In this document: in pieces, positions 6,763 to 38,089 of the stretch
How positions within the stretch are numbered: the stretch's first letter is position 1
Layout of the letters: each line of letters opens with the position of its first letter
Origin: Novosphingobium sp. G106
GTDB taxonomy: Bacteria > Pseudomonadota > Alphaproteobacteria > Sphingomonadales > Sphingomonadaceae
Length of the DNA stretch: 64,000 nucleotides
Direction of reading: 5' to 3'
Assembly (NCBI RefSeq): GCF_019075875.1
Contig: NZ_JAHOOZ010000002.1
Span: forward strand, 318,551-382,550
The notes under the pieces: model-generated
The model's input: the letters and a program-made list of their open reading frames with translations, nothing else
The model's database searches: none
Told to the model about the DNA's origin: nothing
Program-made: the position numbers and the translations under genes

Positions 6763-7762
6763 TCACGCCGCCATATCGATGTTATTCGCGGCAGCATAAT
6801 ATTGTTCTTCGGCTTTGACAGGCGGGATGTTTCCGATAGGCTCGAGCAGTCGCCGATGGTTGAACCAGTCGACCCATTCTAGCGTGGCATATTCGACGGC
6901 TTCGACGCTGCGCCATGGAGCGCGCCTGTCGATCACTTCGGCCTTGTAGAGTCCGTTGATGGTCTCGGCCAAAGCGTTGTCATAGTTGTCGCCGACGCTG
7001 CCGACCGACGGCTCGATCCCTGCTCCGGCGAGGCGCTCCGTGTATTTGATGGACACGTATTGCGAACCGCGATCGCTATGATGGATGTGGCCGTCCCGAT
7101 GGACCGCCCGGCGGTCATGAAGCGCCTGCTCCAGGGCATCGAGGACGAAGCTGGCATGGGCCGTCTTGCTGGCCCGCCAACCGACGATCCGACTAGCAAA
7201 AGGTATCGATGACGAAGGCGACGTAGACCAACCCAGCCCAGGTCGCGACGTAGGTGAAGTCCGACACCCACAGCAAGTTCGGCGCCGGCGCATAGAACCT
7301 GCGGTTGACGTGATCGAGCGGGCACGGCGGCGCCTTGTCGCTGATGGTCGTGCGCACCGGCTTGCCGCGGATTACCACTGCCAGGCCCATCTCACGCATC
7401 AATCGCGCGACCGTGCAGCGGGCGACCGGGAAGCCTTCTCGCATCATTTGTCGCCAGATCTTGCGGACGCCGTAGACCGCGAAGTTCTCAGCGAACACGC
7501 GGGCAATCTCGGGTCTAAGCGCCTATTCTCGTTGCGCCCGCTCCGATAGGCGCATCGGATCGCGACGCTGTGCGATACGCTCATGATACGTCGATGGGGC
7601 GATCGGCAGGACGCGGCAGCTTGGCTCGACCCCATAGGTGTCACGGTGATCGTCAATGAAGGCGATCATCGCTTGAACGGGCGGTCGAGCTCCGCCTGGG
7701 CAAAATATACCGACGCCTTGAGGAGAATCTCGTTGGCTTGTCGCAGTTCGCGGACGTCTCAC
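6763..7762 (-). pseudogene. IS3-family transposase orfB, several frameshifts
   Basis: Three consecutive minus-strand frames together give a whole IS3-type transposase: the start [20 protein letters not shown] (7523-7762), the middle AVYGVRKIWRQMMREGF and LLWVSDFTYVATWAGLVYVA with the first catalytic Asp (7193-7498), and the end HHSDRGSQYVSIKYTERLAG with the second Asp and EWVDWFNHRRLLEP (6763-7293). At least two frameshifts separate them, so no active enzyme is expected. Confidence 0.85.
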
Positions 7763-17831: not shown

Positions 17832-18057
17832 CTTACGGGACCAGATGGACGCCTGATTGAGGATCGCCCGTGGAGGGCTTGGCGTCCTGAACTGCCGTGG
17901 GATTTGTTACCTCAAAATTGTTGCGCTCATCCATCAATATTTTGCTCTACGCCTTGGATGCCATGCTCAGCTATCGGCATCTGCTCAAGGAAGGTGCTGA
18001 CCACGGTCGCAAATGATCGTGACAAATCCCCACAGCAGTTTGTCACGGTAGCGATTG

Positions 18058-20118: not shown

Positions 20119-20321
20119 TCGACGAGATCCAGATCCTCGGCGTCTATGTGCCTGCCGCACTCGCATGGGCCGTCGTAGCAGCGATCTTCGTTTACGCGCT
20201 GCGCGCTCCTTTGCAGCAGCTGCCTGTCTACAGACTCCTCTGGCACCCGAGCCTGCTCGAACTTGCACTGTTCGTTCTCTCTTGGTGGGGGCTGAGCGCC
20301 CTGGCCGACACCTTCCTCTAG
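20115..20321 (+). CDS. DUF1656 small membrane protein
   Basis: The 68-residue protein starts MIDEIQILGVYVPAALAWAV and has two membrane helices, the typical DUF1656 companion of FUSC pumps (AaeX-like). Its ATG overlaps the FUSC stop codon (ATGA), showing translational coupling. It probably helps assemble the inner-membrane pump. Confidence 0.88.
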   Translation: MIDEIQILGVYVPAALAWAVVAAIFVYALRAPLQQLPVYRLLWHPSLLELALFVLSWWGLSALADTFL

Positions 20322-20323
20322 TG

Positions 20324-21241
20324 ATGGGCCCTCAGCCAACTATGCTTCATCGACAGAATTTGTTGCGTTCCGCCGTTACCGCGACAGTGATCCTCGTGAT
20401 CCTGGGCGGGATCTACGCGCTATGGCTGCGCTACCAGGTCGAACCCATAACACGCGACGGCAAAGTCCGTGCCGATATGGTTCCGGTGGCCGCCGACGTC
20501 GGTGGCCTCGTTTCGGAGGTGCGTGTAAGCGACAACGAAACAGTGAAAAAGGGCGACCTGCTTTTCGTGATTGACCGACCTCGTTATCGCCTCGCGCTGG
20601 AACAGGCCGAAGCGAACCTCGTCAATGCGCAAACTGCGCTCGCCCAGGCAGTCCGCGAGGACCGCCGAAACCGTGCGATGGCCGAATTGATCGCGGCTGA
20701 GGCCATCGAGCAGGGTCGTGCGAAGGTCGAGGGGCTGCGGGCCGCAGTAGGACAAGCCGTCGCGGCGCGCGATCTTGCCCATTTCAATCTCGAGCGCACC
20801 CTCGTTCGGGCCCCGGTTGAAGGGACTGTTTCGAATTTCTCGCTACAACCTGGCACCTATCTATCTGCCGGAAAGCCGGCTCTGGCGCTTGTTTTTGATC
20901 GGTCGCTGCGCGTTGAAGGCTACTTCGAGGAAACCAAGCTGCCCGCGATTAAGGTAGGCGACAGGGCAAGCATCTATCTGATGGGGGTTGCTGACGAGAT
21001 CAGTGGTCATGTCCAAAGCATCGCGGGCGGCGTCGAGGACCGCGAACGCGCTGGAAGCGACGGACAACTCGCCAATGTGAATCCCTCGTTTACTTGGGTG
21101 CGCTTAGCGCAGCGCATCCCGGTTCGAATTGTGATCGACAAAGTCCCGGCCAATGTACGCTTGATCCCCGGCCAGACTGCGACAGTTGTTGTCCATCCGC
21201 GCAACGACGGGCGCGAAGTTCATCGGAGCCTACCGTGGTGA
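20324..21241 (+). CDS. HlyD-family periplasmic adaptor of the FUSC efflux system
   Basis: The 305-residue protein has one N-terminal membrane anchor (TATVILVILGGIYALWLRYQ), a biotinyl-lipoyl-like half (MVPVAADVGGLVSEVRVSDN), a helical hairpin (residues ~95-160), the second lipoyl half (RTLVRAPVEGTVSNFSLQPG) and a beta-barrel domain. It would bridge the FUSC pump and the outer-membrane factor (AaeA-like). The start is uncertain: GTG 20321 overlaps the upstream stop, ATG 20324 follows, and ATG 20342 is also possible. Confidence 0.88.
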   Translation: MGPQPTMLHRQNLLRSAVTATVILVILGGIYALWLRYQVEPITRDGKVRADMVPVAADVGGLVSEVRVSDNETVKKGDLLFVIDRPRYRLALEQAEANLVNAQTALAQAVREDRRNRAMAELIAAEAIEQGRAKVEGLRAAVGQAVAARDLAHFNLERTLVRAPVEGTVSNFSLQPGTYLSAGKPALALVFDRSLRVEGYFEETKLPAIKVGDRASIYLMGVADEISGHVQSIAGGVEDRERAGSDGQLANVNPSFTWVRLAQRIPVRIVIDKVPANVRLIPGQTATVVVHPRNDGREVHRSLPW

Positions 21242-22650
21242 GAGCGCGCCTTCTTCTTGCCGTCGCCCTTCTTTCCGGCTGCGCCAAGGTCGGCCCCGAC
21301 TATCATGTTCCCGATGCCGCGCTGGTGCACATCCCAGCAGCGCAGGGCGCGTTCCGCTTGGGCGGGGCTGTGAGCGTCGCCGAACCGCTCCCGGATCGGT
21401 GGTGGCAGCTCTACAACGATCCGGTGTTGGATAGTCTTGTGACACAAGCCCTCGCCGCAAATACCGACCTCAGGATAGCCCAAGCCAATCTCGAACGAGC
21501 TCTGGCGCTGCTCGATGCCTCAGGCGCCAGCCGGGAACTCCAAGGTCGCGTCGATGTGGACACGAGTCATTCGCAGCGCTCCGCCGAGGCCGAGCTGTCT
21601 CACGCGAAGCCACCTGAACGACAAATCTACAACGCCGGCATTGCAGTCAGTTACGATCTCGATCTCTTTGGCGGTCTGAAGCGGGGGATCGAGGCGGTGA
21701 ACGCTGATGCTGAAGCTGCAGTCGCCGCGCGGGATTTGGTCCGGGTCAATGTTGCCGCCGAGACGGCTCGTGCCTATTCCGATATCTGCAACAGCGGTTC
21801 ACAGATCCAGGTGCTTGACCGCGCAATCGCTCTACAAGAAAATATTCTCCGTCTGACGCGAATCCTGATCGTTCATGGTCGCGCCGCGCCTTATGAGATC
21901 GATCGGCGCCAGGTCGCACTCGAGACAAGCCGTTCGCGCCTACCGCGGCTCGCTGCGCGCCAACGCAATGCCCTTCTCAGGCTCACTGCGCTGCTGGGGC
22001 GCGTGCCCGGCGAGGCCGACACTGAGCTTTTGCGTTGCAATAGCCCGCTCCATATCGTGCAGGCCGTTCCCGTCGGTGATGGGCAAGCCCTTCTCAAGCG
22101 CCGGCCCGATATCAGGCTCGCCGAACGCCACCTAGCCGCCTCGACCGCGCGCATCGGCGTTGCGACGGCCGAGCTATATCCGGAGATCCGCCTAGGCGCT
22201 TCTGCGGGTTCGACCGGCGCTGCAGCCGATTTTCTGTCGCCATTGACCAACCGCTTCGGCTTCGGCCCTTCGATTAGTTGGATGCTTAATCGCCATGTCG
22301 TCCGCGCGCGGATCAACGCGGCCGATGCCCAAAGCCGTGCCGATCTGGCGGCGTTTGATGGCGCAGTGCTCAGGTCGCTGCGCGAAGTCGAGACGGCTCT
22401 TAACTCATACGAGGCCGGGATTGTTCAACAACAACGCCTGGAGTCCGCGCGCGCAGAGGCGACCCTTGTTGCCCGCCGCACGGCGCAGTTGCGGCGCGGC
22501 GGCAAAATCGGCGAACTCCCGGCGATCGAGGCCGATCGCGATCTGGTGGCAATGGAACAAGCAGCAGCTGAAGGACAAGCAGCGATTAATGATGACCAGA
22601 TCACGCTTTTCCTGGCGCTCGGCGGCGGTTGGGGCTCCGGAGAGCGATGA
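21238..22650 (+). CDS. outer-membrane efflux lipoprotein (NodT/OprM family)
   Basis: The 470-residue protein begins MRARLLLAVALLSGCAKVGP, a lipoprotein signal with lipobox LSGC, followed by PDYHVP typical of NodT-type factors. Two OEP repeats follow (LVTQALAANTDLRIAQANLE and LLKRRPDIRLAERHLAASTA). It would form the trimeric outer-membrane channel of the pump. The GTG start at 21238 overlaps the HlyD stop by four bases, so all four genes form one operon. The longer open frame from 21094 lies inside hlyD and is not used. Confidence 0.9.
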   Translation: MRARLLLAVALLSGCAKVGPDYHVPDAALVHIPAAQGAFRLGGAVSVAEPLPDRWWQLYNDPVLDSLVTQALAANTDLRIAQANLERALALLDASGASRELQGRVDVDTSHSQRSAEAELSHAKPPERQIYNAGIAVSYDLDLFGGLKRGIEAVNADAEAAVAARDLVRVNVAAETARAYSDICNSGSQIQVLDRAIALQENILRLTRILIVHGRAAPYEIDRRQVALETSRSRLPRLAARQRNALLRLTALLGRVPGEADTELLRCNSPLHIVQAVPVGDGQALLKRRPDIRLAERHLAASTARIGVATAELYPEIRLGASAGSTGAAADFLSPLTNRFGFGPSISWMLNRHVVRARINAADAQSRADLAAFDGAVLRSLREVETALNSYEAGIVQQQRLESARAEATLVARRTAQLRRGGKIGELPAIEADRDLVAMEQAAAEGQAAINDDQITLFLALGGGWGSGER

Positions 22651-22713: not shown

Positions 22714-24978
22714 TCATTCCAAGTTTGGGCTGACACCACAGACCGCGACACTCGTCAAATTGAGGATGCCGCGAGCAGTCACTCCCGGCGTCAACACGTG
22801 GATCGGCTGTGCGAGGCCCAGGAGCATCGGACCTATTGTCGGTGAACCGGATGACGCGGACAACGCCGTAAGGGTGATATTGGCAGCATCGAGATTCGGC
22901 ATAATAAGCAGGTTGGCGGCACCACGAAATCTTGAATGGGGCACCAACTTGTCGCGCAGCGCTTCGCTCAATGCCACATCAGAATGCATCTCTCCATCTA
23001 CCTGAAGATCCGGTGCTGCATCTCGCACCAGTGCGGTCGCAGTGCGCATCTTGCGCGCGCTCGGACTATGTGACGATCCAAAATTCGAATGTGAAAGCAT
23101 GGCGATCCGCGGTTCCAAACCAAAGCGGCGCACTGCTTCAGCGGCTAAAAGTGTCATTTCAGCTACCTGTTCGGCCGTTGGATCTGGCACCATGTGCGTG
23201 TCCGCCAAAAACAGCGCGCCCGCGTCGAGTATGAGGCCGGAAAGGGCGTATACCCTCCCCTGCACTCGATCAATGATGCGCAGCACATGCTCAATCTCGC
23301 CCCAATATTCCGAGTTGCCCCCGACCAGGGCCGCGTCCACTTGGCCCGTCTTCAAAAGCATTGCCGCGGTCACGGTGGGCGACCGCTGAACGTGACGGTG
23401 AACCTGCGTTGCAGGGACGCCCTTGCGAGCGGAAACGGCAAGGTAAGCATCCGCGAGTTTCCCCAACAGCTCGTGATCCGTCTCAGTATCCACCAAATCA
23501 AGATCACGGTCGATATCGATTTGCAGACCGAGTTCGGGTAGCTTCCGTTCCAATATGCGACGCCGCGCCACTAACGTCGGGCGCACCATACCTTCCTGCA
23601 GAGCGTCCTGCACAGCGCGCAGCACGCGGCCGTCCTCGCCCTCACCGTATGCGACGCGCCGCCCGGCGCCCCGCGCGGCCTCAAAAACCGGCAACATAAC
23701 TTGAGCGGTTCGAGCATTCACGTTCGCCAGCGACCGTCGGTATTCGTCGAGATCCAGCGCGCGGGTGGCGACGCCGCTATCCATAGCTGCCTTTGCGACA
23801 GCGGGTGCGACCTCAGTAATGAGACGTGGATCGAACGGAGTTGGGATGATGTATTCCGGCCCGAAGACAAGTTTGCGCCCACCGTGCGCCTGCGTCACGC
23901 TGTCATGTGCAGCGACACGTGCAAGGGCCGCGATCGCCTCGGCCGCAGCTACCTTCATTTCCTCGTTAATCTGCGTGGCGCCAACATCGAGCGCCCCACG
24001 GAAAATATAAGGAAAACAGAGTACGTTGTTGACCTGGTTAGGATAGTCCGAACGACCGGTAGCAACTATCGCGTCTTTCCGCACGGCATTGACGAGCTCG
24101 GGTCTGATCTCGGGTTCTGGGTTGGCAAGCGCGAAAATCAGAGGATTTTCCGCGAGCAAAGGCAGCCACTCGCTTTTGAGTACGCCCGGTGCGGAGAGAC
24201 CTAGGAAGACGTTTGCACCAGGCAACACCTCCGGCAAAGTGCGTGCATCCGTCTCGCGCGCGTAACGCGCCATGTTCGGCAGCATTCCAAGTCGCCGCGA
24301 ATGGATGACTCCCTCCTTGTCCGTCATGGTGACGTTTTCAACCGGCAGTCCCATCGATACGAGCAGGTCAACACAGGCGAGCGCCGCGGCCCCTGCGCCG
24401 GAGGTAACCAGCCGAGCGTCAGACAGTGCTATGCCCTGCAAAACCAGCGCATTCCGAACCGCCGCGGCGACGACGATTGCGGTGCCATGCTGGTCATCAT
24501 GGAACACGGGAATGTTCATGCGCCCTTTGAGCGCTGCCTCGATGGCGAAGCACTCGGGTGCCTTGATGTCCTCCAGGTTGATGCCGCCAAAGGTGGGTTC
24601 GAGCAGCGCGACAGCCTCAACGAACTGTTGCGGGTCGCCTGTGTCCACCTCTATGTCAAAGACGTCGATACCCGCGAATTTCTTGAACAGAACGGCCTTG
24701 CCCTCCATCACCGGCTTAGAGGCCAAGGCCCCGATCGCCCCCAAGCCCAGAACAGCAGTTCCGTTTGAGATTACTGCGACAAGATTGCCGCGAGCGGTGT
24801 ATTCGAGCGCTTTGGCCGGATCCGCCGCAATTTCAATGCAAGGGGCCGCCACGCCGGGCGAATAAGCAAGCGCGAGATCGCGCTGGTTTACCATTCGTTT
24901 CGTGGGTTCAATTGCCAGCTTTCCCGGGCGCGGGAGACGGTGGTAATCAAGCGCCGCGCGCCGAAGGCTGTCGTCCAT
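22714..24978 (-). CDS. maeB: NADP-dependent malic enzyme with phosphotransacetylase-like domain
   Basis: The 754-residue protein has the malic enzyme domain in the first ~430 residues ([73 protein letters not shown] nucleotide fold) and a C-terminal phosphate-acetyltransferase-like domain (residues ~440-750) that is regulatory, as in MaeB. It converts malate to pyruvate and CO2 with NADP+, supplying NADPH and pyruvate. Start ATG 24978 has AAGGAG six bases upstream. It converges on the efflux operon and is intact. Confidence 0.95.
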
Positions 24979-25219
24979 GATCCACTCCTTCATTCGGGTC
25001 GCGCACATTTACCAAAGACGTGCGATCCCGGGGCTCTCAAACACGTTCGAGCGACGCTTGTCGAGCAAATGAGGGGGCGTTCCACCACGTAAAATTGGGC
25101 AAGCGGCGACTGATGAGAATAAGCTCCCAGGGGTTTGGCTCCTGTGGCGATCGGTGCTCGACAGTCCACCGGGGCATGAGGTCCTCATACACCGGCGCGA
25201 TAAGACGAGGAGCCTTCAA

Positions 25220-27614: not shown

Positions 27615-27855
27615 GCTCCAAAACAGCAATATGAATGTCACGAAGGCTAAGTCGCCAAATCCAATCAGGATTGCTGCGCAATCATTAATCATAAGTGGGA
27701 TCCGTCGGTGGCCATCAATTGGCCTGCTCCCGACGTTCGAGGAATCATTCGCTTCTCCAGGCAGCGGTAACGCCCGGAGTTCGCGTTCTGCGATTATTTG
27801 ACATCCCCTCGGTGCAAGATACTATCGATCGGATGGCTTTTGAGCACCCAACGCC

Positions 27856-27925
27856 TCATGCGGGTAGCGGCACTGCACGCCTGCTTGCCCTAGATCCGCG
27901 GGTTTACGCCCGCCGGACCTAGGGC
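27856..27925 (+). ncRNA. three-copy structured leader element, copy 1
   Basis: Core CATGCGGGTAGCGGCACTGC (27857 on) continues to GCCCTAG (27887-27893), which pairs with CTAGGGC (27919-27925) around an inner stem TCCG/CGGA and CGGG/CCCG. The 37-nt span from CAT to CCCTAG aligns without gaps to copies 2 and 3. TTGACA at 27798-27803 lies 64 nt before the GGGTAGC core and could be the -35 box. The dioxygenase start is 142 nt downstream. No T-run follows, so it is not an ordinary terminator. Confidence 0.6.
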
Positions 27926-28067
27926 ATCGCTGTTGGGCGTGATCGGTTGATCTGCGCCAGGTTTTCATTTTTTCGTGGCCAGCTCCGACCTAGGAGCGCC
28001 GATCTCGCGGCTTAGCCAGCTGTCGCAAGCTTCATGCTTCCACGAAAACCGATCAGGGATCATGCAC

Positions 28068-29495
28068 ATGAACGTCGAAACCGGCACGTTGAAACCCGGA
28101 GAGGCGCGCTGCCCGGCCGAGACTACGCAGGAAATCATCGCGCGCGACAAGGTCGCCGCGCCTGCCTGGGCCGCCAGCGAAAGCTACGAATACCTCGGCA
28201 GCGAGGACATCTCGAAGGACCGCTACACCACCGCCGAATTCGCCCAAGGTGAGTTCGACCGGCTGTGGACGCGCACCTGGCAGATGGCTTGCCGCGAGGA
28301 GCATATCCCCGACGTCGGCGACTATTACGTCTATGACCTCGGGCCCTACAGCTTCGTCGTCACGCGCAGCGGCGAGGACGAGATCCAGGCCCATTTCAAT
28401 TCGTGCCTGCACCGCGGCACCAAGCTCAAGCCCTCGGGCACCACGGGCTTCTCGAACAACCTCAAGTGCCCGTTCCACGGCTGGACCTGGAACCTCGACG
28501 GCAGCCTCAAGGAAATCCCCGAGAAGTGGGACTTCAGCCATACCCAGGGCAAGAAGATGTGCCTGCCCGAAGCCCGTGTCGAGCGACTGGGCGGCTTCGT
28601 CTGGATCAACATGGATCCCGAAGCGCCGAGCCTGGCCGACTACCTGGGCAAGGAAGTCATGGCGCACATGAACGCCTGGAAGCTGGAAGACCGCTACATC
28701 TACCTGCACGTCCAGAAAAGCTACCCGGCCAACTGGAAGCTGACGATGGAGGCCTTCATGGAGGCCTATCACGTCGGCGACACGCACCCGCAGGTGGCGC
28801 CGGCGAACGGCGACGTGAACTCGCAGTACGACTGGTACGACGAGCATGTTAACCGCTTCATCTCGACGCTCGGCGTGGTCAGCCCTAAGTTATACAACAA
28901 GTACAGCGAGCAGGACATCGTCGAGCACTTCACCCTGGGTGACAGCTCGTCGCTGGGCGGCAGCAAGCCGCAGCTCAAGGACGGCGAGCGCGCCCGCCAG
29001 GTCATGGCCGACATGTTCCGCGGCATGTTCGAGAGTGCGACCAACACCGATCTCAGCCACGTTTCGGACACCGAACTGCTCGACACCTACAGCTACACGT
29101 TCTTCCCGAACCTGTTCCTGTTCCCGGGCATCTCGCTGCCGATGATCTATCGCTTCCGGCCCGATGCGCGCGACCATCGCCGCACGATCTACGAAGTGAT
29201 GTTCATGCGCCCGTGCCCCAAGGACGGCTCGGTTCCCGAGACCGCCGAGGTCGAGATCCTCGAGGACCACCAGTCCTTCGCCGAGGCAAAGGGCATGGAT
29301 CCGGTCTTCGGGGTGATCCTCAATCAGGATACTCGAAATCTGCACGCCCAGCAGGAAGGCCTCGAAGCCAGCGCCAAGCCGGGGATCACACTGGGTGACT
29401 ACCAGGAAATCCGCATCCGCCACTTCCAGAAGGCAATCGACAAGTACATGGCGATGGAGCCCAAGCTCCCCGACTGGCGGACATCACAACGCTGA
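28068..29495 (+). CDS. Rieske aromatic ring-hydroxylating dioxygenase, alpha subunit
   Basis: The 475-residue protein has a Rieske [2Fe-2S] site (C113, H115 and C134, H137 in NSCLHRGTKL and LKCPFHGWTW) and the mononuclear-iron motif MEAFMEAYHVGDTHP with H235 and H240. It inserts oxygen into an aromatic or related substrate, needing a ferredoxin and reductase not encoded nearby; no beta subunit is next to it either. Start ATG 28068 has AGGGA eight bases upstream; ATG 28062 and an open frame to 27975 are alternatives. Codon choice is much more GC-biased than in the flanking DNA, suggesting a separate origin. Confidence 0.92.
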   Translation: MNVETGTLKPGEARCPAETTQEIIARDKVAAPAWAASESYEYLGSEDISKDRYTTAEFAQGEFDRLWTRTWQMACREEHIPDVGDYYVYDLGPYSFVVTRSGEDEIQAHFNSCLHRGTKLKPSGTTGFSNNLKCPFHGWTWNLDGSLKEIPEKWDFSHTQGKKMCLPEARVERLGGFVWINMDPEAPSLADYLGKEVMAHMNAWKLEDRYIYLHVQKSYPANWKLTMEAFMEAYHVGDTHPQVAPANGDVNSQYDWYDEHVNRFISTLGVVSPKLYNKYSEQDIVEHFTLGDSSSLGGSKPQLKDGERARQVMADMFRGMFESATNTDLSHVSDTELLDTYSYTFFPNLFLFPGISLPMIYRFRPDARDHRRTIYEVMFMRPCPKDGSVPETAEVEILEDHQSFAEAKGMDPVFGVILNQDTRNLHAQQEGLEASAKPGITLGDYQEIRIRHFQKAIDKYMAMEPKLPDWRTSQR

Positions 29496-30375
29496 ACGAG
29501 GAATGACCCAAGCTAAGCGGGAGGGGCAACGCTTCCGATCGCTCCCGCCCATTCCCGTGAGCGGGAAACGCCTGCAGATCTACTTTCGATCAGCAACGGA
29601 ACCAATCAGGTCCCGCCAAGCGCCCAGGTCGCGAGGGGAGACGATGCGTCGGCGCGTTCAATACTCAACGCCTCTGGAGACATTACAACGATGCAGATTG
29701 GCGCCTGTTCGACCATTCAATCGCAATCGGAAGCCCCCGGAGACGTCGAGATCGTGTGGCGACAGGCCTTTGGCCACATCGAAAGTGCGGGGCGCGGAAC
29801 GCTCGCCTGAGAAACCACCAGGCTTCAGTCGGGCGATCGCCAGGGTTTGCTTCGATGCTGTCACCGACTCCTCTTGTGCGTCGGCGGCCTGACCGGTCGG
29901 GTGCGGGCGATGCTCGGCCTGCGAGCACGATATCCAAAACAGCGACACCGCCATTGCCGCCTCCGGTTCCGCTTCGCTCCACCAATCGCACTGGACCACT
30001 CGGGGGGGGCCGATCATTGGGCCAATTTCGGCCAGCGCCTATCTCCCATCTGGTGCCATCGAAACACTTGCAGCGCTCGTGCTGGACAGAGAACTGGCGC
30101 GGGCTATCGAATAAGGCCTATGGGAACAGACGGCCCAATCGTCCCTGAGTCCTTTGCGTGGCGCAATACACCCTGCAGGCACACCGTCATTCACAGTACA
30201 ACCCAGATGCTTTCGCCAATCAAAGTAAATTATCGGTCTTTACTAAAACTAGTAGGCGATAACATGGTCTGAATAACAGCTGAACGCCCATATTTTTCTT
30301 GCCAAACCACACAATTTGACATTCAGACTTCGAATACCCATATTCGTAACATCATGATGGCACCGATAACCCATT
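29496..30375. other. long unassigned stretch
   Basis: Frames of 100-140 codons exist on both strands (for example 29658-30017 minus, 29847-30272 plus) but none has a clear ribosome-binding site or family pattern. GCGGGAG/CTCCCGC near 29518-29548 can form a hairpin behind the dioxygenase gene but lacks a T-run. The last 100 bp are AT-rich and contain TTGACA at 30316-30321, the likely promoter for the element that follows. Confidence 0.35.
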
Positions 30376-30451
30376 CTGAAATTCATCCGGGTAGCAGTAC
30401 GGCACGGATGCACGCCCTAGCCGGCGAAGGCTAACGCCTTCCGTCTAGGGC
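30376..30451 (+). ncRNA. three-copy structured leader element, copy 2
   Basis: Core CATCCGGGTAGCAGTACGGC (30384 on) leads to GCCCTAG (30414-30420), closed by CTAGGGC (30445-30451) with an inner GCGAAGGC/GCCTTC stem. The conserved tract extends upstream (CCCATATT and GAAAT-CATCC blocks are shared with copy 3). TTGACA at 30316-30321 is 73 nt before the core. The next supported gene starts at 30773, 320 nt downstream, longer than for copies 1 and 3. Confidence 0.6.
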
Positions 30452-30772
30452 CCTTAATCGATCGAATAGCGGCCTTCGCGCTCAAGCTCGCGCGCCCAAT
30501 GCATCCCGTGCTTCAGGTCTGAAAATCTGAATGACATGAGTGCCAATGGGATCCTCCGAGTTCACAAGCCTGTGCACTGGGAGCGCCGAGTATGCGAGGC
30601 CTGCCCCACGATTGATCAGCGAACAGAGCATCGCCTGCGATGGTACTTCTATCGAAGCCGAAGGAAACCTGAGGCAGAGTTCACACGCAATCCTCGTTTA
30701 GATTGCGCTGTGAAACCTCACAGGACAATTGGCTCGTCCGCGCTCCAACCGCTTATTCCCGAGGATTTTGAA

Positions 30773-31069
30773 ATGCACAGCCATAGATTGTTGTCCAAGA
30801 GTAGAACTCAACAAACAATTCGACTCTCATATAATTCGCCCGATCGCCCGAATGCCTTTCACGATAATATGGCCAGTAATGCCCTCTTCGACACGCAGGC
30901 AGGCCATATCGAGTATGCCTTAGCTTTTGGGGATGCAAAAACTCGCAAACAATTTCACCGCTTCGTAAACAACGAATTCCACGGAGGCGAAATCCGCAGA
31001 GTTATGCTAGCGTCGGCCCTGGGAACTATTTCTATAGTAATTATATCAGTTTTCGCAGCGCTGCTATAA
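30773..31069 (+). CDS. small protein with C-terminal membrane helix, unknown function
   Basis: The 98-residue protein (MHSHRLLSKSRTQQTIRLSY) is polar until residue ~75 and ends in a hydrophobic helix (RVMLASALGTISIVIISVFA). GAGGA lies seven bases before ATG 30773; the same frame is open from 30536 but that region is not protein-like. Family not recognised. It is the first of a run of co-directional small genes ending at the hemD-like gene. Confidence 0.55.
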   Translation: MHSHRLLSKSRTQQTIRLSYNSPDRPNAFHDNMASNALFDTQAGHIEYALAFGDAKTRKQFHRFVNNEFHGGEIRRVMLASALGTISIVIISVFAALL

Positions 31070-31127
31070 CATAGACGACGCGCCTAACCTTATGATATAT
31101 TGGTTATTCATTTAAAGAATAAGCGGT

Positions 31128-31277
31128 ATGAACATAATCTTCGTTATGATATTATCATCTATATATTGCGCTGCCTTTGTGGTCACCCGCCGTCCGCGGA
31201 TATATTGGGCCGTTACCTCCCTCGCGTTTCTATTAGCCGCGACATCACTGATGATGTTCACCGAAATTCTTTCATAA
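31128..31277 (+). CDS. 49-residue two-helix membrane protein
   Basis: The frame MNIIFVMILSSIYCAAFVVT, RRPRIYW, then a second hydrophobic helix (AVTSLAFLLAATSLMMF) and a stop at 31275-31277 has the pattern of a small hairpin membrane protein with a positive cytoplasmic loop (RRPR). The ribosome-binding site is weak (AAGAATAAGCGG). It sits between two supported genes in the same direction. No family recognised. Confidence 0.4.
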   Translation: MNIIFVMILSSIYCAAFVVTRRPRIYWAVTSLAFLLAATSLMMFTEILS

Positions 31278-31320
31278 TAATATCGACGCCAGACAGCAAG
31301 GATCATTAAAGGATCATATA

Positions 31321-31878
31321 ATGAATCTCATTGCGCAATCACGCCTAATGAAAACCCTCCTAAATGTTGCCGGCAACCAGGCCGATAGCATTCTTAGCGA
31401 TGGAGAAATAAGCGCTATTTCATTGGAGCGTAGAATCTCTGATTTAGAAATATCCCCTCTTCTTGACAAGCAGTTACTGGCCACCGCACTTCGAGTCGCC
31501 GGCGACCTAGGTCTCTCGAGCGGTGTCCGGAATAGTTTATTCAATCGGTTCCAAAATCCCGCCCCAACCGTAGCGATCGATGCGCAGCGACGAGCAATCA
31601 TCAGCGAGGTGAAGGCGAAGGGGCTGCCTATGGAACTGGCGATGGATTATGCAAATACCCTAGAACGCCGACTCACCGTCTCCCCCGAGGATTTGGGGGA
31701 TACGCTCTGGGCCTATGCTTCGGTTTACGAGGAGATTTGGAGCGATCCGAGGATAGGTGCGCGCGCTCCGACGAGGAGAATCATGTTAGCTATGGCGACG
31801 GTTCTTCGCGCCCGCAGCGCGCAGCTCGCGATGAATGCCTCACTGACTACAGCGACTGCATTCCGGGTCAGCAGCTAA
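31321..31878 (+). CDS. protein of unknown family, paralogue of the gene at 32279
   Basis: The 185-residue, mostly helical protein shares two blocks with the product of 32279-32953: ALRVAGDLGLSSGVRNSLFN/DAQRRAIISE and YASVYEEIWSDPRIGARAPT followed by RRIMLAMATVLRARSA. AAAGGATC precedes ATG 31321. The family is unknown to me; the conserved (W)xDPRIGA motif could be diagnostic in a profile search. No catalytic motif is visible. The two tandem paralogues suggest a heteromeric complex or recent duplication. Confidence 0.65.
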   Translation: MNLIAQSRLMKTLLNVAGNQADSILSDGEISAISLERRISDLEISPLLDKQLLATALRVAGDLGLSSGVRNSLFNRFQNPAPTVAIDAQRRAIISEVKAKGLPMELAMDYANTLERRLTVSPEDLGDTLWAYASVYEEIWSDPRIGARAPTRRIMLAMATVLRARSAQLAMNASLTTATAFRVSS

Positions 31879-32085
31879 GCAGTAATGTGTCTCGAGGCAG
31901 CGCGAGTGGTGATGGGAAAAGGGAAAAGGCCAAAATTTTGACGAACCGCTGCCGAAGTACATGGCCGCATCGATTGTCTTCAGCAAGCGATGTCGGCGAG
32001 GTCGTCGTTTGCCTCTGATTATAAGAGCGCCGTGGGAAATGTGGCCCTAACGTTCGATCAACAGTCTATCAAAAGGAGTATTACT

Positions 32086-32250
32086 TTGAATGATGATGCC
32101 CCTTTCCCTGCGAGAGCGAGGGAGATGATCGATCACCCCGGTTCTGCGACGGGAAAAGTTATTCCGTTCGCAACGCCGACAGGGCGCCCGCTTTCGAAGG
32201 GCGGTTCAGCGTGGAGGCCAAGACCGACGGAGCCCCCAAGTGCGGCTTGA
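32086..32250 (+). CDS. short basic hypothetical protein
   Basis: A TTG start at 32086 follows AAAAGGAG by seven bases and gives 54 residues (MNDDAPFPARAREMIDHPGS, then KVIPFATPTGRPLSKGGSAW). Low complexity, no fold recognised. The strong site between two paralogous genes is the main evidence. The frame is open from 31990. Confidence 0.4.
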   Translation: MNDDAPFPARAREMIDHPGSATGKVIPFATPTGRPLSKGGSAWRPRPTEPPSAA

Positions 32251-32278
32251 CAGAAATCTATAAGTTAAGGAGCTCGAA

Positions 32279-32953
32279 ATGAATAGGCGTCAGTCCAGGC
32301 GGCCTGATCTATTAGATGATTTGATGCAGACTGCAGCTGCCCGCGCCAAAGAGATATCTTCCGCCCCGGGGGCTGCTGCAAGGCTACGTCAGGTCGGATC
32401 GGACGATCTCAGTGAGATTGGACGGCTGGAGACTTCTCCCTTTGCCGAGGACCAACTGGTAGCTGTGGCGCTGCGGCTAGCGGGGTCGAGATCAATGCGA
32501 GGTGACCTCGAAGAAAGTCTCAGGAGATATATGGAGACCCCGGCCTCTTCGCTCGAGACGGAAGCCCAGCGGCAGACTATTTGGAGGACAAACCGGCAAA
32601 CTCCGCTACCGATTGCTCAGGCCGAGGCTGCCGCCGGCACCATAGAACGGGACATAGTTAGCGGTGGCAGAGATGCATCGCAGGAGCTTGCCCGATGGGC
32701 CGCTTTCTATGCGGACTTCTGGTGCGATCCACGCATAGGTGCCAGCGCTCACGCCCGACGGGTGATGTTGTTCATGGTGACATTTCTCCACGATCGGGCC
32801 AATCCGTTTGATGAACCTGCCCCCCCTGCTCAATGGAGCAAGCTTGTGACGGGAGGATCGTCCAACGACGCCCCGCCGTATCAATTTGGCTGCCTGGGGC
32901 AAGGCATATTCGTTGTCCTGCTAGTGACATTCTTTCTGCTGATTACGCCTTGA
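32279..32953 (+). CDS. protein of unknown family, paralogue of the gene at 31321, with added membrane helix
   Basis: The 224-residue protein shares ALRLAGSRSMRGDLEESLRR and FYADFWCDPRIGASAHARRV with the 185-residue neighbour and adds a C-terminal extension ending in one membrane helix (GCLGQGIFVVLLVTFFLLIT). It could anchor the pair to the inner membrane. AAGGAG lies six bases before ATG 32279. Function unknown. Downstream (32954-33274) I see no gene. Confidence 0.65.
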   Translation: MNRRQSRRPDLLDDLMQTAAARAKEISSAPGAAARLRQVGSDDLSEIGRLETSPFAEDQLVAVALRLAGSRSMRGDLEESLRRYMETPASSLETEAQRQTIWRTNRQTPLPIAQAEAAAGTIERDIVSGGRDASQELARWAAFYADFWCDPRIGASAHARRVMLFMVTFLHDRANPFDEPAPPAQWSKLVTGGSSNDAPPYQFGCLGQGIFVVLLVTFFLLITP

Positions 32954-33274
32954 GCCACCGCCGTCGACCATGCGAACGTCTCCAAAGATTTTGGTCGTTC
33001 AGCAGTTCAGGGGGCCGTCCAATCGGTGGCGTATCCGGTCGTGCGTTCCCTTCCCATTGTATTGATGATAGGCTCACTGCCATGATGCGGCATTCATCTT
33101 TTGTTCGGCTTCAAGCTTACGGGGGTAGCCTTATGATCCGGCTCCTCCCCCTCGGTGCGTAGCAGCCGCTAAGAGGTAGCGGTCGCATCGCGTCCGAGGG
33201 CGCTCAGTTCGCTCTCCGCTCCCACACTCTCAGTGTATCCCTTCTTTCGGCCCGCGAAGCGCCTGGAGATTGAT

Positions 33275-33628
33275 ATGAAGACCGATGATATTCAGATTCT
33301 TCCCGAAGTATTACTAATCGAACGACGTGCGGAATTCGAGGAGGCTATGGCACAGAATTTTGCCGGATCTCCAGAAGCCGTTCCATCAGTTCAGGATCGT
33401 CAAGCAGTTCGCGACATATACGAGTTGTTGATCGCTGTACTGAATGGCAAGGATGGCATATCAGCCGTAGAATCCCCGGATGCATTCTCAGCAACTTACT
33501 ACAGCCGATTTGGCGATGCACTTTCTCCGATTCTCAGAGACGTTCTAGGGGATTCCGCCTCGCAATCTTTCGTGGCCAAAGCCGTCGATTGTTTCTGGGG
33601 AGCAGTTCGTGCTGTTCGCTCCCGATAA
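33275..33628 (+). CDS. globin-like helical protein, paralogue of the gene at 39763
   Basis: The 117-residue protein ends in YYSRFGDALSPILRDVLGDS and KAVDCFWGAVRAVRS, which resembles helices G and H of bacterial globins (HYxxxGxAL...LG...W). I see no proximal His at the F-helix position (before ATYYSRFG), so haem binding is doubtful and the globin call is inference. GGAG lies before ATG 33275. The gene overlaps the following hemD-like gene by 20 bp, implying linked function, possibly tetrapyrrole-related. Confidence 0.6.
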   Translation: MKTDDIQILPEVLLIERRAEFEEAMAQNFAGSPEAVPSVQDRQAVRDIYELLIAVLNGKDGISAVESPDAFSATYYSRFGDALSPILRDVLGDSASQSFVAKAVDCFWGAVRAVRSR

Positions 33629-34274
33629 TCAAATTTGGGTGACAAGGACCGCTCCATTCAATCAGTTAACGGCGCGACATCTCAAGAACGCAGGCCTCAA
33701 TCCATTGCTGGCGCCCGCGCTTCAGGTAGTTCCGCTTCGAGCGAACGGACCAATGATTGTCCCCGATGCCCTGGTATTCACAAGCCTGCAGGGCGTTCGG
33801 CATCACCCCTTCCTCCCTTCACTCGCTCATCTACCGGTGTTCGCGGTGGGCGGCCATACCGCCCGGATGGCGCGCCTTCGCGGATATAAAAAAGTCACTT
33901 CCGCTTGGGGTGATGTGCATGACCTTCGGAAACTCATATGCGCTGAGATGCCCTTCGGCGCGACGATAATGCATCTAAGTGCTGCTCAGCCCGCTGGAGA
34001 TCTTGTTGGCATGCTCAGCGACGACGGTTACCAAGCCAGGCGCCGCAGTGTTTATAAGACGATGGAGACGAATTTTTCCGATCTCGAGGGGGTGGCGGCG
34101 AATCTCTCTTTGATCGGGACGATCCTTATTCATTCGCCCCGCGCAGGATGGCATGTCGCCCAATGGCTTGAAGAGCGACGAATGAATTGGTCGGGTATCA
34201 TTTATTGCATTTCGCCAGCAGCCTCCGAACCGTTTAAAAATAAAGGCATAGCACGGGTGTCAGTGGGCGTGTAA
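33609..34274 (+). pseudogene. hemD-like uroporphyrinogen-III synthase, 5' part, cut by IS21
   Basis: The product from GTG 33609 (MLFAPDNQIWVTRTAPFNQL; DALVFTSLQGVRH; LPVFAVGGHTARMARLRGY; ILIHSPRAGWHVAQWLEERR) has the two-domain HemD pattern. HemD closes and inverts the linear tetrapyrrole to uroporphyrinogen III. At 34258 an IS21 element enters the coding sequence; the last six codons (VSVGV) and stop come from the element. The native 3' end resumes after the element at 36591. The truncated product lacks about 40 residues. Its coupling to a globin-like gene suggests a specialised copy, not the housekeeping hemD. Confidence 0.8.
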
Positions 34275-34320
34275 TTCTCCGCAAAAGTGGGCTTTGAAAA
34301 TTCCCTGATTGTTGGACCTG

Positions 34321-34362
34321 GTTGCCCAATGAGCCGGGGTTAACCCCGGCTCATTGGGCAAC
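34321..34362. repeat. 42-bp perfect palindrome inside the IS21 left end
   Basis: GTTGCCCAATGAGCCGGGG followed by TT is exactly mirrored by its complement, so 34321-34362 is a perfect palindrome without spacer. It lies between the left terminal repeat and istA. It could form a cruciform or strong RNA hairpin that blocks read-through transcription from the host gene into istA, or be a transposase-binding site. Confidence 0.85.
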
Positions 34363-34402
34363 GCCAAAATCGGCGCGATGACCTCCTGCGGGAGGCCCGC
34401 CG

Positions 34403-35659
34403 ATGATCCGACTTGGAGAAGCCATGATGATACTGGAGCTGCACCGGCAGGGGCTGTCGGTGACCGCCATCGCCCGTCGGACGGGCCGCGATCCCAAGAC
34501 CATTCGCAAATACATCGAGCGCGGCGTCGAGGTGCCGGCGTACGGCCCGCGCCAGTTGGGGCGTCCGTGCAAGATCGCGCCGTACATGGAGTTCCTGCGC
34601 GAGCGGGTCACCGCGTTTCCCGAACTCACGGCCTCGCGGCTGACCCGCGAGATCCGGGAGATGGGCTACGCCGGCGCCTATACCGCCGTGAAGCGATACC
34701 TCGCCGCGATCCGGCCCGAGCACGATCCCAAGCCCTACGAGGTCCGCTTCGAGACCAAGGCCGGTGTGCAGGGCCAGGTCGACTTCGCCCGCTTCGTCGT
34801 CGAGTTCACCGACGAGCCGGGGGTGGTGCGCATCGTCTGGTTGTTCAGCCTGGTGCTGGGCTACTCGCGGTTCCTGTTTGCCCGCTATGTGCTGCACCAG
34901 GACCTGCAGACGCTGCTGCGCTGTCACATGCAGGCCTTCGAGGCGCTGGGCGGCGTGCCGATCGAGATCCTCTACGACCGCATGAAGACGGCGGTGACCG
35001 GCGAGGATGATCAGGGCCACATTGTCTACAACACCTCGCTGCTGGCGCTGGCGAAGCATTACCGCTTCCAGCCCAGGGCCTGCCGTCCCTATCGCGCAAA
35101 AACGAAGGGCAAGGTTGAGCGGCCCTTCCGCTATATCCGCGAGGACTTCTTCCTGGGGCGATCCTTCCGCAACATGGAGGACCTCAATGTCCAGCTCATC
35201 GACTGGCTCGATACGGTCGCCAATGCACGCGTGCACGGGACGACCCAACGCGTGGTGGCCGAGGCCCTAGCCGAGGAACAGGGGGAACTTCAGCGGCTCC
35301 CCGACCATCGCTTCAACGCCGTCCTGAAGCTCGAGCGGCGGGTTACCCATGATGGCTTCGTCGCGGTTGGCGGCAACTTCTACAGCGTGCCCGACCGGAC
35401 CCGCCGGCTCGTCGAGATCGAGCAGCTGCCGGATCTGGTGCGCATCATCGACCGCGGCATCGTCGTCGCCGAGCATCCCGTGCTCGAAGGGCGCCGGCAA
35501 TATCGTATCGACCGGCGCCATCGCACCGGACGGCCGCAGCCGCGAACGCCGGAGAGGCCCATGACAATGATCGGCCGGATCGGCGACCATGTGCCACTGC
35601 GTTCGCTGGCGGTCTATGAGGCGATCGGCGCGAGCCTGGCGATGGAGGGGCGGCCATGA
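34403..35659 (+). CDS. istA: IS21 transposase IstA
   Basis: The 418-residue protein starts with a helix-turn-helix (GLSVTAIARRTGRDPKTIRK) and has the rve-type DDE core: first Asp in VQGQVDFARFVVEF, second in EILYDRMKTAV, Glu in KGKVERPFRYIREDF, then the C-terminal beta-barrel typical of IS21 (VTHDGFVAVGGNFYSVPDRT). It cuts and joins the element ends. Its stop overlaps istB by four bases. Confidence 0.95.
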   Translation: MIRLGEAMMILELHRQGLSVTAIARRTGRDPKTIRKYIERGVEVPAYGPRQLGRPCKIAPYMEFLRERVTAFPELTASRLTREIREMGYAGAYTAVKRYLAAIRPEHDPKPYEVRFETKAGVQGQVDFARFVVEFTDEPGVVRIVWLFSLVLGYSRFLFARYVLHQDLQTLLRCHMQAFEALGGVPIEILYDRMKTAVTGEDDQGHIVYNTSLLALAKHYRFQPRACRPYRAKTKGKVERPFRYIREDFFLGRSFRNMEDLNVQLIDWLDTVANARVHGTTQRVVAEALAEEQGELQRLPDHRFNAVLKLERRVTHDGFVAVGGNFYSVPDRTRRLVEIEQLPDLVRIIDRGIVVAEHPVLEGRRQYRIDRRHRTGRPQPRTPERPMTMIGRIGDHVPLRSLAVYEAIGASLAMEGRP

Positions 35660-36513
35660 ACGGTGCGGCACCATCCTCGCGCGTCGACTCCATCCGCCGC
35701 AGCCTCGTCATGCTCAAGATGCCGCGCGCACTCGAGATCCTCGATGCCACCCTGCGGCGCATCGAGCAGGGTCAGATCGATGGCATCGAAGCGCTTGATG
35801 AGCTGCTGGGCGAAGAGCTCTCGCTGCGCGAGAACCGCCGGATCAAGGCTGCCCTGCGCATGGCGCGGCTCCCTGTGGTCAAGACCCTGGCCGGCTACGA
35901 CTTCTCCTTCCAGCCATCGCTCGATAAGAACCGCATCCTGGCGCTCGCCGGCCTCGACTTTATCGAACGAGCCGAGGTCGTCCATCTGCTCGGCCCTCCC
36001 GGCACCGGCAAAAGCCACATCGCTACAGCACTTGCCGTCGAGGCCGTCCGCGCCGGCAAAGCAGTCTACTTCATCCCGCTCGCCGATCTGATCGCGCAGC
36101 TTGCCAAAGCCGAGCGTGAAGGCACACTGAGGGAGAAGATCCGCTTCCTCACCAGGGCATCGCTGCTGGTCGTCGACGAGATCGGTTACCTGCCGGTCAC
36201 GCCCGGCGGCGCCAACCTGTTCTTCCAGCTCGTCAACGCCCGCTACGAAAAGGGCGCCATGATCCTCACTTCCAATCGCGGCTTCGCCGAATGGGGAGAG
36301 GTCTTCGGCGATCCTGTCGTCGCCACCGCGCTGCTCGACAGGCTGCTGCACCACGCCGTCGTCATCCAGATCGAAGGCTCCAGCTACCGCATGCGTGAGC
36401 ACGCGGCGCTCGTGCCCGAAAACGTCCGCAACGGCGCCCCGTTCAATCCGCACCCGCCAAAGCGCCGCGGGCGACCACCGATGAAAGGAAAGCCCGATCA
36501 CGAATACGGCTGA
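35656..36513 (+). CDS. istB: IS21 helper ATPase IstB
   Basis: The 285-residue AAA+ protein has Walker A LLGPPGTGKSHIATALA, Walker B SLLVVDEIGYLP and sensor LTSNRGFAEWGEVF. IstB assembles on DNA and recruits IstA, selecting the target. ATGA overlap with istA shows coupling. Intact. Confidence 0.95.
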   Translation: MNGAAPSSRVDSIRRSLVMLKMPRALEILDATLRRIEQGQIDGIEALDELLGEELSLRENRRIKAALRMARLPVVKTLAGYDFSFQPSLDKNRILALAGLDFIERAEVVHLLGPPGTGKSHIATALAVEAVRAGKAVYFIPLADLIAQLAKAEREGTLREKIRFLTRASLLVVDEIGYLPVTPGGANLFFQLVNARYEKGAMILTSNRGFAEWGEVFGDPVVATALLDRLLHHAVVIQIEGSSYRMREHAALVPENVRNGAPFNPHPPKRRGRPPMKGKPDHEYG

Positions 36514-36590
36514 TCACCGCTCCGTCCAAAACCGCCAACGTAGGGAATTTTGGGCGCCCACATCTGGGGAAAGTTCGGTGCCCGTTGACA

Positions 36591-36721
36591 CACGGGTAGC
36601 AATTGCTACGCGACCAACCGAACGCTCCCTGTTAGATCTCATCCGGCACATGGGTACTTCAGATATCGACCACCTCCGCAGCGATTCTCGCGGGAAAAGG
36701 CTACCGAACGGCTGCACGTGA
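36591..36721 (+). pseudogene. 3' remnant of the hemD-like gene
   Basis: Removing the IS21 element and one target copy joins ...GIAR to VAIATRPTERSLLDLIRHMG in frame and reaches a TGA at 36719-36721. This gives an ancestral protein of about 257 residues, a normal HemD length. This piece has no start of its own. Confidence 0.8.
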
Positions 36722-37080
36722 CCAGACTAGTTCGATGAACTGCGCTCGCTGGTGACCTGCCCCACATAACAAGGGCTTAGCTTCGTCAGCGCGCTCCGTT
36801 CGACCATGAATTTCGCGGCATGTCCTTGCGATAGCATCAAAAAGCGTGCCGGCGGCGCCACAAAATTTCTCGATGCCCTCGACGACCAGAGCAGCTGCCA
36901 CACTTGCAAGATCGATGCCGAGATCCTTGGGCGTCGAGAGGATCTGACCCGCGCCCTCGACGTCCGCAGCCAGAGACTGGCTCGTCACGCCATGATCAAG
37001 AAAGCCCTCCATAGTCTTGAGCGGCATAGTGCTGATCGTGTCGCGTCCGATCAGCGTCTCTGCGTAGAGCACGTCACGAT
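36701..37080 (-). pseudogene. C-terminal fragment of a transaldolase
   Basis: The minus strand reads LYAETLIGRDTISTMPLKTM, FLDHGVTSQSLAADVEGAGQ, LGIDLASVAAALVVEGIEKF, the end of a transaldolase of the pentose phosphate pathway (the conserved YxETLIGxxTxxTMP motif is intact). The N-terminal two thirds are missing: at about 37080 the sequence passes into an IS110-type transposase. Its stop end overlaps the hemD remnant. Confidence 0.75.
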
Positions 37081-37527
37081 CCCGTACTCAGCCAAGTGAC
37101 CCCGAAGCGCGTTGATCAGCATGGTGCGCTGCCGAACCATGAGATCGCGGCTATTATGAAGCATCAGCACCGCCTGCTGCTCGACCGACTTCACAGCGAC
37201 GAAGCGCATCGTCGGGCGCGTTACTGCTTCGCAGATCGCTTCGGCATCCGCCGCATCGGTCTTCCCGCGCTTCACATAAGGCTTAACACAAGCCGGCGAC
37301 ATCAGGCGCACCTCACGCCCGATCGCCATCGACTCGCGCGCCCAGTGATGCGCCGAAGCGCAGGCTTCCATGCCGACCAGGCAAGGGGATAGCTCCGCGA
37401 AGAACCCAATGACCTCGGACCGACGCAGCTTGCGCCGGATCAGCACTACGCCATCGGCTGCGATAGCGTGCACCTGAAACACATTCTTCGCCAGATCCAA
37501 TCCGACGGTGACAACCTCCTGCTCCAT
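37081..37527 (-). pseudogene. 5' part of an IS110-family transposase
   Basis: About 150 residues remain (MEQEVVTVGLDLAKNVFQVH; LVGMEACASAHHWARE; KPYVKRGKTDAADAEAICEA), the RuvC-like DEDD domain of IS110 transposases. The serine-containing C-terminal domain is missing, replaced by the transaldolase scrap. The rest of the element's start side runs to about 37610 without other features. The element is inactive. Confidence 0.88.
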
Positions 37528-37686
37528 GGAACGACTCCTAGAAGTGGACCTACAACGACCACATCATTGCACAGCTACGCTGGTGCGGAGGTCGTCCACG
37601 ACATCACGTCAGTGGATCTCTGAGTTTGCATTTATATTTAGAAGCCCCATATTAGATACATTATGATGTGCATAAGACGAAATTCC

Positions 37687-37760
37687 GAAATCCATCCCGG
37701 CAGCAGTACCGCACGACTGCATGCCCTAGGCGCTTAGTGCCTCAAGCCTTCGCCTAGGGC
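37687..37760 (+). ncRNA. three-copy structured leader element, copy 3
   Basis: Core CATCCCGGCAGCAGTACCGC (37693 on) leads to GCCCTAGGCG (37723-37732), which pairs perfectly with CGCCTAGGGC (37751-37760). The conserved tract continues upstream to CCCATATT, as in copy 2. A TTGCAT at 37626-37631 lies in the same place as TTGACA in the other copies. The next gene begins about 105 nt downstream with a very strong ribosome-binding site. Confidence 0.6.
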
Positions 37761-37864
37761 TCCTCTCAACAAGCCAAGTGGCGCCAGTTGGCGCGGTAGA
37801 TCTTGCTGTGTGCGTTAAACCGGCGGTCGAATGATCTCCGGGAGTTCGCATGCAAGGAGGTATT

Positions 37865-38089
37865 GTGTTAAATCAATTCGTTGTGGAGGCGAACAAGGAG
37901 ACCGTCGGGGTCGCAGTGCGCGTGCCCGGAGGTTTCCGCTTCTTCTATTCTGACCCACGCTTTAGTGGTCTGGACGGTCAAATTTTCCGCCGGGGCAAGC
38001 AACTGGCGCGGACCGTGGGCAAGCTTGCGCAGAAGAAGGGTGTCGGGCGCCTTGACGAGGCATTTTGCGAGAAGCTGGCGTTTCACTGA
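37865..38089 (+). CDS. small conserved hypothetical protein
   Basis: The 74-residue protein (LNQFVVEANKETVGVAVRVP, then GGFRFFYSDPRFSGLDGQIF) starts at GTG 37865, four bases after AAGGAGG; an ATG at 37850 is possible. I recall similar small proteins in sphingomonads but know no function. It follows copy 3 of the structured leader directly and may be controlled by it. Confidence 0.6.
   Translation: MLNQFVVEANKETVGVAVRVPGGFRFFYSDPRFSGLDGQIFRRGKQLARTVGKLAQKKGVGRLDEAFCEKLAFH

Follow-up and report, generated by a model that had tools for sequence, protein, structure and literature searches.

Three related elements at 27856-27925, 30376-30451 and 37687-37760 of a 64,000-nt stretch of DNA from Novosphingobium sp. 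G106 (contig NZ_JAHOOZ010000002.1, here C2, positions 318,551 to 382,550; the whole stretch is called the window) each contain a conserved core that probably encodes a short peptide of about 20-30 residues and runs into a hairpin. Based on the comparison of 31 distinct leaders, seven from the same genome and 24 from elsewhere, it is quite likely that the element is a selected leader open reading frame (ORF) beside a structured RNA, and we lean towards the reading that each copy acts as a leader-peptide attenuator, which is reused for several genes. The same cassette of conserved peptide and hairpin precedes several unrelated types of gene, of which three are single cases so far, and seems to represent a new family of peptide-based gene switches.

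The window forms one end of C2 (382,550 bases), and the genome comprises 7.2 Mb in five contigs. An initial annotation of the window had proposed three copies with a common ungapped core of 37 nt, and alignment confirms both the positions given above and the core itself, as CAT...GCCCTAG aligns without a gap at 27857-27893, 30384-30420 and 37693-37729. At zero mismatches, GGYAGCRGYACNGCACNNNTGC has four sites in the genome, namely copies 1-3 and a duplicate of copy 3, and with up to two mismatches 13 matches were obtained versus 6 for the reversed pattern; the three copies exceed chance occurrence. On the forward strand, copy 1 combines a promoter-like site (TTGACA, 17 nt, ACTATC; 27798-27826) with leader ORF 1 (MAFEHPTPHAGSGTARLLALDPRVYARRT, then stop; 27833-27922) and a hairpin at 27886-27926. 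The same order is seen on this strand in copy 2, with TTGACA-N17-CATATT containing a groES-type CCATATT (30316-30344), leader ORF 2 (MMAPITHSEIHPGSSTARMHALAGEG, then stop; 30354-30434) and a hairpin at 30414-30451, and in copy 3, with TTTGCA-N17-CATATT (37625-37653; CCATATT and a weak -35), leader ORF 3 (MMCIRRNSEIHPGSSTARLHALGA, then stop; 37663-37737) and a hairpin at 37723-37760. The promoter-like hexamers described earlier are hence present upstream of the copies; copy 1 has TTGACA but no CCAT-type -10. The seven distinct leaders of this genome (copies 1-3, L012, L017, L018 and L022) all lie on C2, and copy 3 is additionally duplicated together with its surroundings at C2:3595 (L001), near the opposite end of the contig and outside the distinct count. 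No match on the other contigs was judged real, since the pattern matches on C1 and C4 carried two mismatches and lacked the leader layout, and the models matched C2 only.

The coding nature of the core follows from its variation, which falls mainly at third codon positions and leaves the peptide ...E-[ILV]-H-[PA]-G-S-S-T-[AE]-R-L. Across the eight codons from H to R in 29 leaders, 1035 single-difference codon pairs were synonymous and 229 were not (1035/1264, or 82%, with 25% expected), and the synonymous share in the shifted frames was 9% and 10%; these counts are not independent, because pairs between related sequences enter them. Thirty leaders were then in hand, and L099 was dropped as its match was out of register (its ORF reads MIILSLIFGRNTARL, then stop). 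Since the core itself had supplied the patterns or models by which most leaders were found, we repeated the test on 13 distinct leaders upstream of genes for a small protein, here called protein A, which were found by protein search: 185 of 223 pairs were synonymous (83%; 25% expected), and 7% and 14% in the other frames. Among the 29 leaders, H is kept in 24, P in 20 or A in 8, G in 28, the two S in 28 and 27, T in 28, A in 19 or E in 8, R in 28 and L in 22. Amino-acid selection on the leader peptide is thereby well supported. The stop codon directly follows the motif in L014, L015, L022, L026, L033, L039 and L054, and comes a few codons further on, up to within the hairpin, in other leaders; in the copies read it stands just before or inside the hairpin.

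The hairpin is closed in each of copies 1-3 by GCCCTAG pairing with CTAGGGC, as had been predicted, and its inner part is variable in length as well as in sequence, as described. The hairpin is GC-rich. Of the 17 leaders measured, 12 have its start 5-6 nt past the Arg codon, and in all 17 this distance is 2-7 nt (in L025, the codon at this position is not Arg). In 91-nt windows, the z-scores of the minimum free energy were -3.51, -1.72 and -3.53 for copies 1, 2 and 3, so that the hairpin of copy 2 is weak on its own. The outer 7-bp stem was 93% paired in the first 17 leaders, where 2 of 500 shuffles attained its covariation score, and again 93% paired in 21 leaders, where covariation (0.327 versus 0.221 in shuffles) was reached by none of 500 shuffles and exceeded the slid controls. 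With 27 leaders, some rows of which are out of register, pairing was 91% and the score was again reached by 0 of 500 shuffles. A conserved RNA structure beside the end of the ORF was accordingly found in these leaders, and this single hairpin is the only conserved helix found. The copies read have the GC hairpin of an intrinsic terminator and no T-run after it, which agrees with the first description.

Upstream of the ORF, an in-frame ATG lies 6-9 nt past a -10-like box in 20 of the 31 leaders (copies 1-3, L014, L015, L018, L023, L025, L026, L027, L029, L032, L033, L039, L055, L102, L104, L105, L106 and L107; the boxes of copy 1, L023, L025 and L055 are weak, and of two candidate ATGs the one nearer to this spacing was taken). 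This spacing suggests a leaderless mRNA with its 5' end at the ATG. Alphaproteobacterial groES genes are driven by RpoH (sigma-32), and part of the leader promoters may be of this kind, with CTTGAC-N16/17-CCAT as in the groES genes of the family. The pattern TTGAC-N16/17-NCAT was found upstream of 25 of 29 groES loci (28 genomes), 12 of 31 leaders and none of 29 rpsL loci (29 genomes), and TTGAC-N16/17-NTA[TA][AT] upstream of 0/29, 0/31 and 16/29, respectively, in upstream regions of unequal length (320 nt for groES, 99 nt for leaders, 350 nt for rpsL). Both controls stem from the same family, and the groES set omits L146 and seven further matches without locus. CCAT occurs in the -10 region of 20 of the 31 leaders, where that of L103 overlaps the ATG. 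The likeness is incomplete, as the leaders have CCAT and not CCTAT and only the 12 fit strictly; the use of this sigma factor is predicted. For comparison, PMC4843759 gives the Sinorhizobium RpoH1 motif as CTTGAA-N15-16-CCTATAT, and PMC8407463 states that a conserved T at -7 is missing from more than 80% of N. aromaticivorans sigma-70 promoters.

Our data also confirm that the copies stand ahead of genes, and the leader recurs before several types of them. Protein A is encoded behind 18 leaders (copy 3, L014, L015, L018, L022, L023, L025-L027, L029, L030, L032, L033, L039 and L102-L105), a glutamate-synthase-like enzyme behind five in four genera (L012, L054, L055, L106 and L178; PF01645 was shown for L055 and the gene behind L012, and the other three were assigned by reading) and small probable membrane proteins with weak mutual similarity behind another five (copy 2, L017, L052, L053 and L099). 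The three singletons are a Rieske oxygenase (copy 1), a sigma factor (L071) and another small protein (L107). In the window, the ORF for the Rieske-type ring-hydroxylating oxygenase alpha subunit (PF00848, PF00355) spans 27975-29495 on the forward strand, as the longest ORF whose true start may be further in. Its third-position GC is 0.87, compared with 0.46-0.67 in adjacent ORFs and 0.81-0.86 in nearby IS21 genes; being well above that of the adjacent ORFs, it looks as if the gene had been acquired separately. The ORF behind copy 2 (30536-31069, forward strand) has a hydrophobic C-terminus and shows weak similarity to the small proteins, probably of the membrane, that are encoded after other leaders.

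Protein A, the commonest product behind the leader, has 74 residues and a GTG start in the window (37865-38089, forward strand). It is an undescribed small family: no Pfam, NCBIfam or solved-structure match and no clear fold match emerged from the searches made, and its members comprise three strands and helices, with a hydrophobic residue and H at the end in 7 of 21 aligned members. The leader link gives a first handle on this family. Among its 17 genes in 397 genomes (an 18th match, L037, was dropped as it sits in a 539-aa frame), the leader is directly upstream of 14 and separated by an intervening ORF in one (L036/L099). By genome, protein A and leader co-occur in 11, protein A is alone in 2 and the leader is alone in 4. 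The copy of protein A near the L001/L041 duplicate shifts frame after its first half. A HemD-like gene lies behind protein A at L102 according to Pfam and at L104 and L105 by reading; a HemD-like gene (uroporphyrinogen-III synthase) of the window, at 33609-34274, shares 43% identity across 170 residues with the L102 gene, which comes from another genus.

A search for further copies, which the initial annotation had proposed as a check, recovered leaders in other genomes. With model R3, 15 of 397 genomes and 9 of 96 genera of the family carry the leader, and in a draw from a single genus 7 of 151 genomes were positive, four of them new; the 24 leaders from elsewhere include L023 from Novosphingobium album. 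Further leaders such as L102-L105 were recovered by models not built on them (E 1e-12 to 4e-12). One model search yielded 36 matches, of which 24 were judged real and 12 were not (L056-L064, L066-L068), the least clear of the rejected ones being L064 with HPGSGTHPR in one frame. In 240 genomes drawn from the class, model R1 gave no convincing leader outside the family under strict filters that may miss weak ones, and the weak R1 matches L072-L080 in nine genomes outside the family were each inspected and showed no leader. The copies have no match in Rfam release 15 at the gathering threshold, as the annotation had expected, and 11 leader loci searched with E up to 1 gave two weak matches only, both outside the leaders. 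A pattern scan of viral contigs gave six matches, which were judged to be chance from their reading frames, with no hairpin test, and a phage origin was rejected. A plasmid collection searched with protein A and with the DNA of the copy-3 leader gave no match to either.

How might such a leader act? The mRNA would begin at or a few nt from the ATG of the ORF, driven by a promoter that is often groES-like (heat-shock type), and, judged from the spacing, the ORF would be read without a Shine-Dalgarno sequence. While making ...E-[ILV]-H-[PA]-G-S-S-T-[AE]-R-L, the ribosome would meet the stable hairpin about 5-6 nt past the Arg codon, and under stress the nascent peptide could slow or arrest it around the Arg/Leu codons or on the stop codon that comes right behind them. 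An arrested ribosome would keep the 5' arm of the hairpin open and so alter expression of the downstream gene, whose Shine-Dalgarno sequence would become accessible or whose transcription would escape Rho-type termination. Nascent-chain arrest is a serious candidate for the mode of action, which we hold tentatively, and transcription start, stalling, direction of control and signal are steps that we infer. We are doubtful about the bolder idea that the E-[ILV]-H-[PA]-GSST[AE]RL motif, read from a leaderless mRNA, serves a whole set of unlinked operons as a common stress sensor on the ribosome, in which case the regulon would be defined by the ribosome and not by a transcription factor.

Several findings weigh against the attenuator. 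Two of the 17 protein-A genes (L034 and L035) have no leader within about 450 nt upstream, and the element is present in no more than 15 of the 397 genomes surveyed in the family. Eleven leaders (copy 1, L012, L017, L022, L023, L025, L054, L055, L071, L099 and L178) have no CCAT at -10, the boxes of L023 and L017 are rather sigma-70-like, L030 has no in-frame ATG, and in the genome of the window, matches to the exact promoter pattern are no commoner than those to the reversed control (4 versus 4). The initial claim of a covarying hairpin is borne out by the score of the outer stem, but double-sided changes and pair types remain within the shuffle range: their counts were reached by 139 and 466 of 500 shuffles, respectively, with 17 leaders, by 130 and 211 with 21 and by 256 and 266 with 27. 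Covariation is therefore not decisive, and relatedness alone can raise the score. Pairing with the downstream Shine-Dalgarno sequence was in the best tenth for 8 of 18 leaders, where about 2 would be expected if uniform and more because the best of five windows was taken, and removal of the first 48 nt released this sequence in no consistent manner. In copy 3, the pyrimidine tract TCCTCTC just 3' of the hairpin (37761-37767, forward strand) could pair with the Shine-Dalgarno sequence at 37854-37860, a suggestive pairing which 23% of other windows beat. Sequestration of the downstream Shine-Dalgarno sequence is thus a weak and only suggestive part of the proposal.

Among other explanations, we regard it as unlikely that the element is an independent small gene, whose peptide acts in trans, whose short mRNA is terminated or protected by the hairpin, and behind which the genes have promoters of their own. 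The peptide is indeed conserved as a protein, the gap to the next ORF, counted from about where the hairpin starts, is long (115-184 nt for protein-A genes), and leader peptides can act in trans, as PMC7298713 describes for peTrpL. However, such a gene fits poorly with hairpins that lack a T-run and with 14 of 17 protein-A genes directly behind the leader, and it would not need to stand before the same enzyme type at five loci in four genera. Less likely still is a translation or heat sensor in which leader translation does no more than link the movement of the ribosome to the opening of the hairpin, with the peptide mattering little and no nascent-chain arrest. Pairing above shuffles in the leaders measured, an apparently leaderless start and groES-type promoters would suit such a sensor, yet it predicts little amino-acid selection, whereas G, S, S, T and R are each kept in 27-28 of 29 leaders, H and L mostly, and third positions drift.

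The initial annotation favoured a riboswitch-like leader or a small RNA (sRNA) family, and the recurrent, structured, leader-like element before varied genes bears out one half of this idea. Since the core is an ORF selected at the amino-acid level, a riboswitch aptamer or non-coding sRNA is not the best reading and appears highly improbable: the conserved part outside the hairpin shows codon-like variation in a single reading frame, one conserved helix was found, and the candidate was dropped after the coding test, with no conserved non-coding aptamer found. Equally improbable is a mobile-DNA repeat (insertion sequence (IS) end, REP or integration site) that was copied along with the insertion sequences near it, a match to a known repeat such as an IS end being one of the refuting outcomes named in the annotation; the duplicated copy 3 and an IS21 pair between copies 2 and 3 would fit, but the flanks of the other copies differ, the reading frame is kept, most copies keep promoter spacing and a gene behind, and divergence in 9 of 96 genera is codon-like.

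The proposed attenuator resembles several known systems in part. In several arrest-peptide regulators, the stalled ribosome opens an RNA structure, and SecM, ErmBL, TnaC, MifM and CruR share with our leaders a short upstream ORF (uORF), conserved residues near the proposed arrest site and a gene behind. Here, in contrast, the motif is GSST[AE]RL instead of RAPP or RAGP, the start is seemingly leaderless, arrest is predicted, and one peptide precedes several unrelated gene types; no RAPP-like or RAGP C-terminal motif was present in 30 leader peptides. To our knowledge, a known leader peptide mostly serves a single type of operon. The reuse ahead of several gene types is, besides the seemingly leaderless start, an unusual feature. 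Transcription attenuators of the trpL and ilvBNC type likewise have a leader ORF and then a hairpin, but our leaders lack a run of codons for one amino acid and a T-run, and have one conserved hairpin only. PMC9426467 describes the RAPP motif of arrest peptides and CruR as a uORF that combines translation arrest with Rho termination, while RAGP comes from the sequence of SecM; by analogy, CruR supports the attenuator. HPGSSTAR did not occur in the literature searched, which mostly excludes subscription journals, text matches to GSSTAR were apparent word fragments among the matches listed, and nothing on this peptide was among the matches listed for leader-peptide searches. If true, the proposal would add a new arrest motif and an unusual translation-based regulon in the sphingomonads, a group known for the degradation of pollutants and lignin.

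In this context, C2 looks like a plasmid or second replicon, since genes for a RepA-type initiator and ParA/ParB-type proteins lie at 51.9-55.4 kb of the window. Redox and respiratory stress genes flank other leader copies on C2, at C2:164000-183999 (L183) and C2:212000-228000 (L184). Within about 12 kb of these leaders, one set comprises a flavohaemoglobin-like protein, a globin, glutamate dehydrogenase and Nramp, and another oxidase subunit II, COX15/CtaA, superoxide dismutase, peroxiredoxin and carbonic anhydrase. As genomic context and not as proof of a signal, this suggests that C2 may be a stress-related replicon. The IS21-type istA/istB pair is located at 34403-36513 of the window, and Rfam places an ALIL pseudoknot (RF01497), presumably the frameshift element of IS3-family insertion sequences, at 7595-7711 on the reverse strand. 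Besides, the window carries a COX1-type oxidase subunit (15378-16862), a FUSC/HlyD/OEP efflux set (18055-22650) and, on the reverse strand, a malic enzyme with a phosphate acetyltransferase-type domain (22714-25008).

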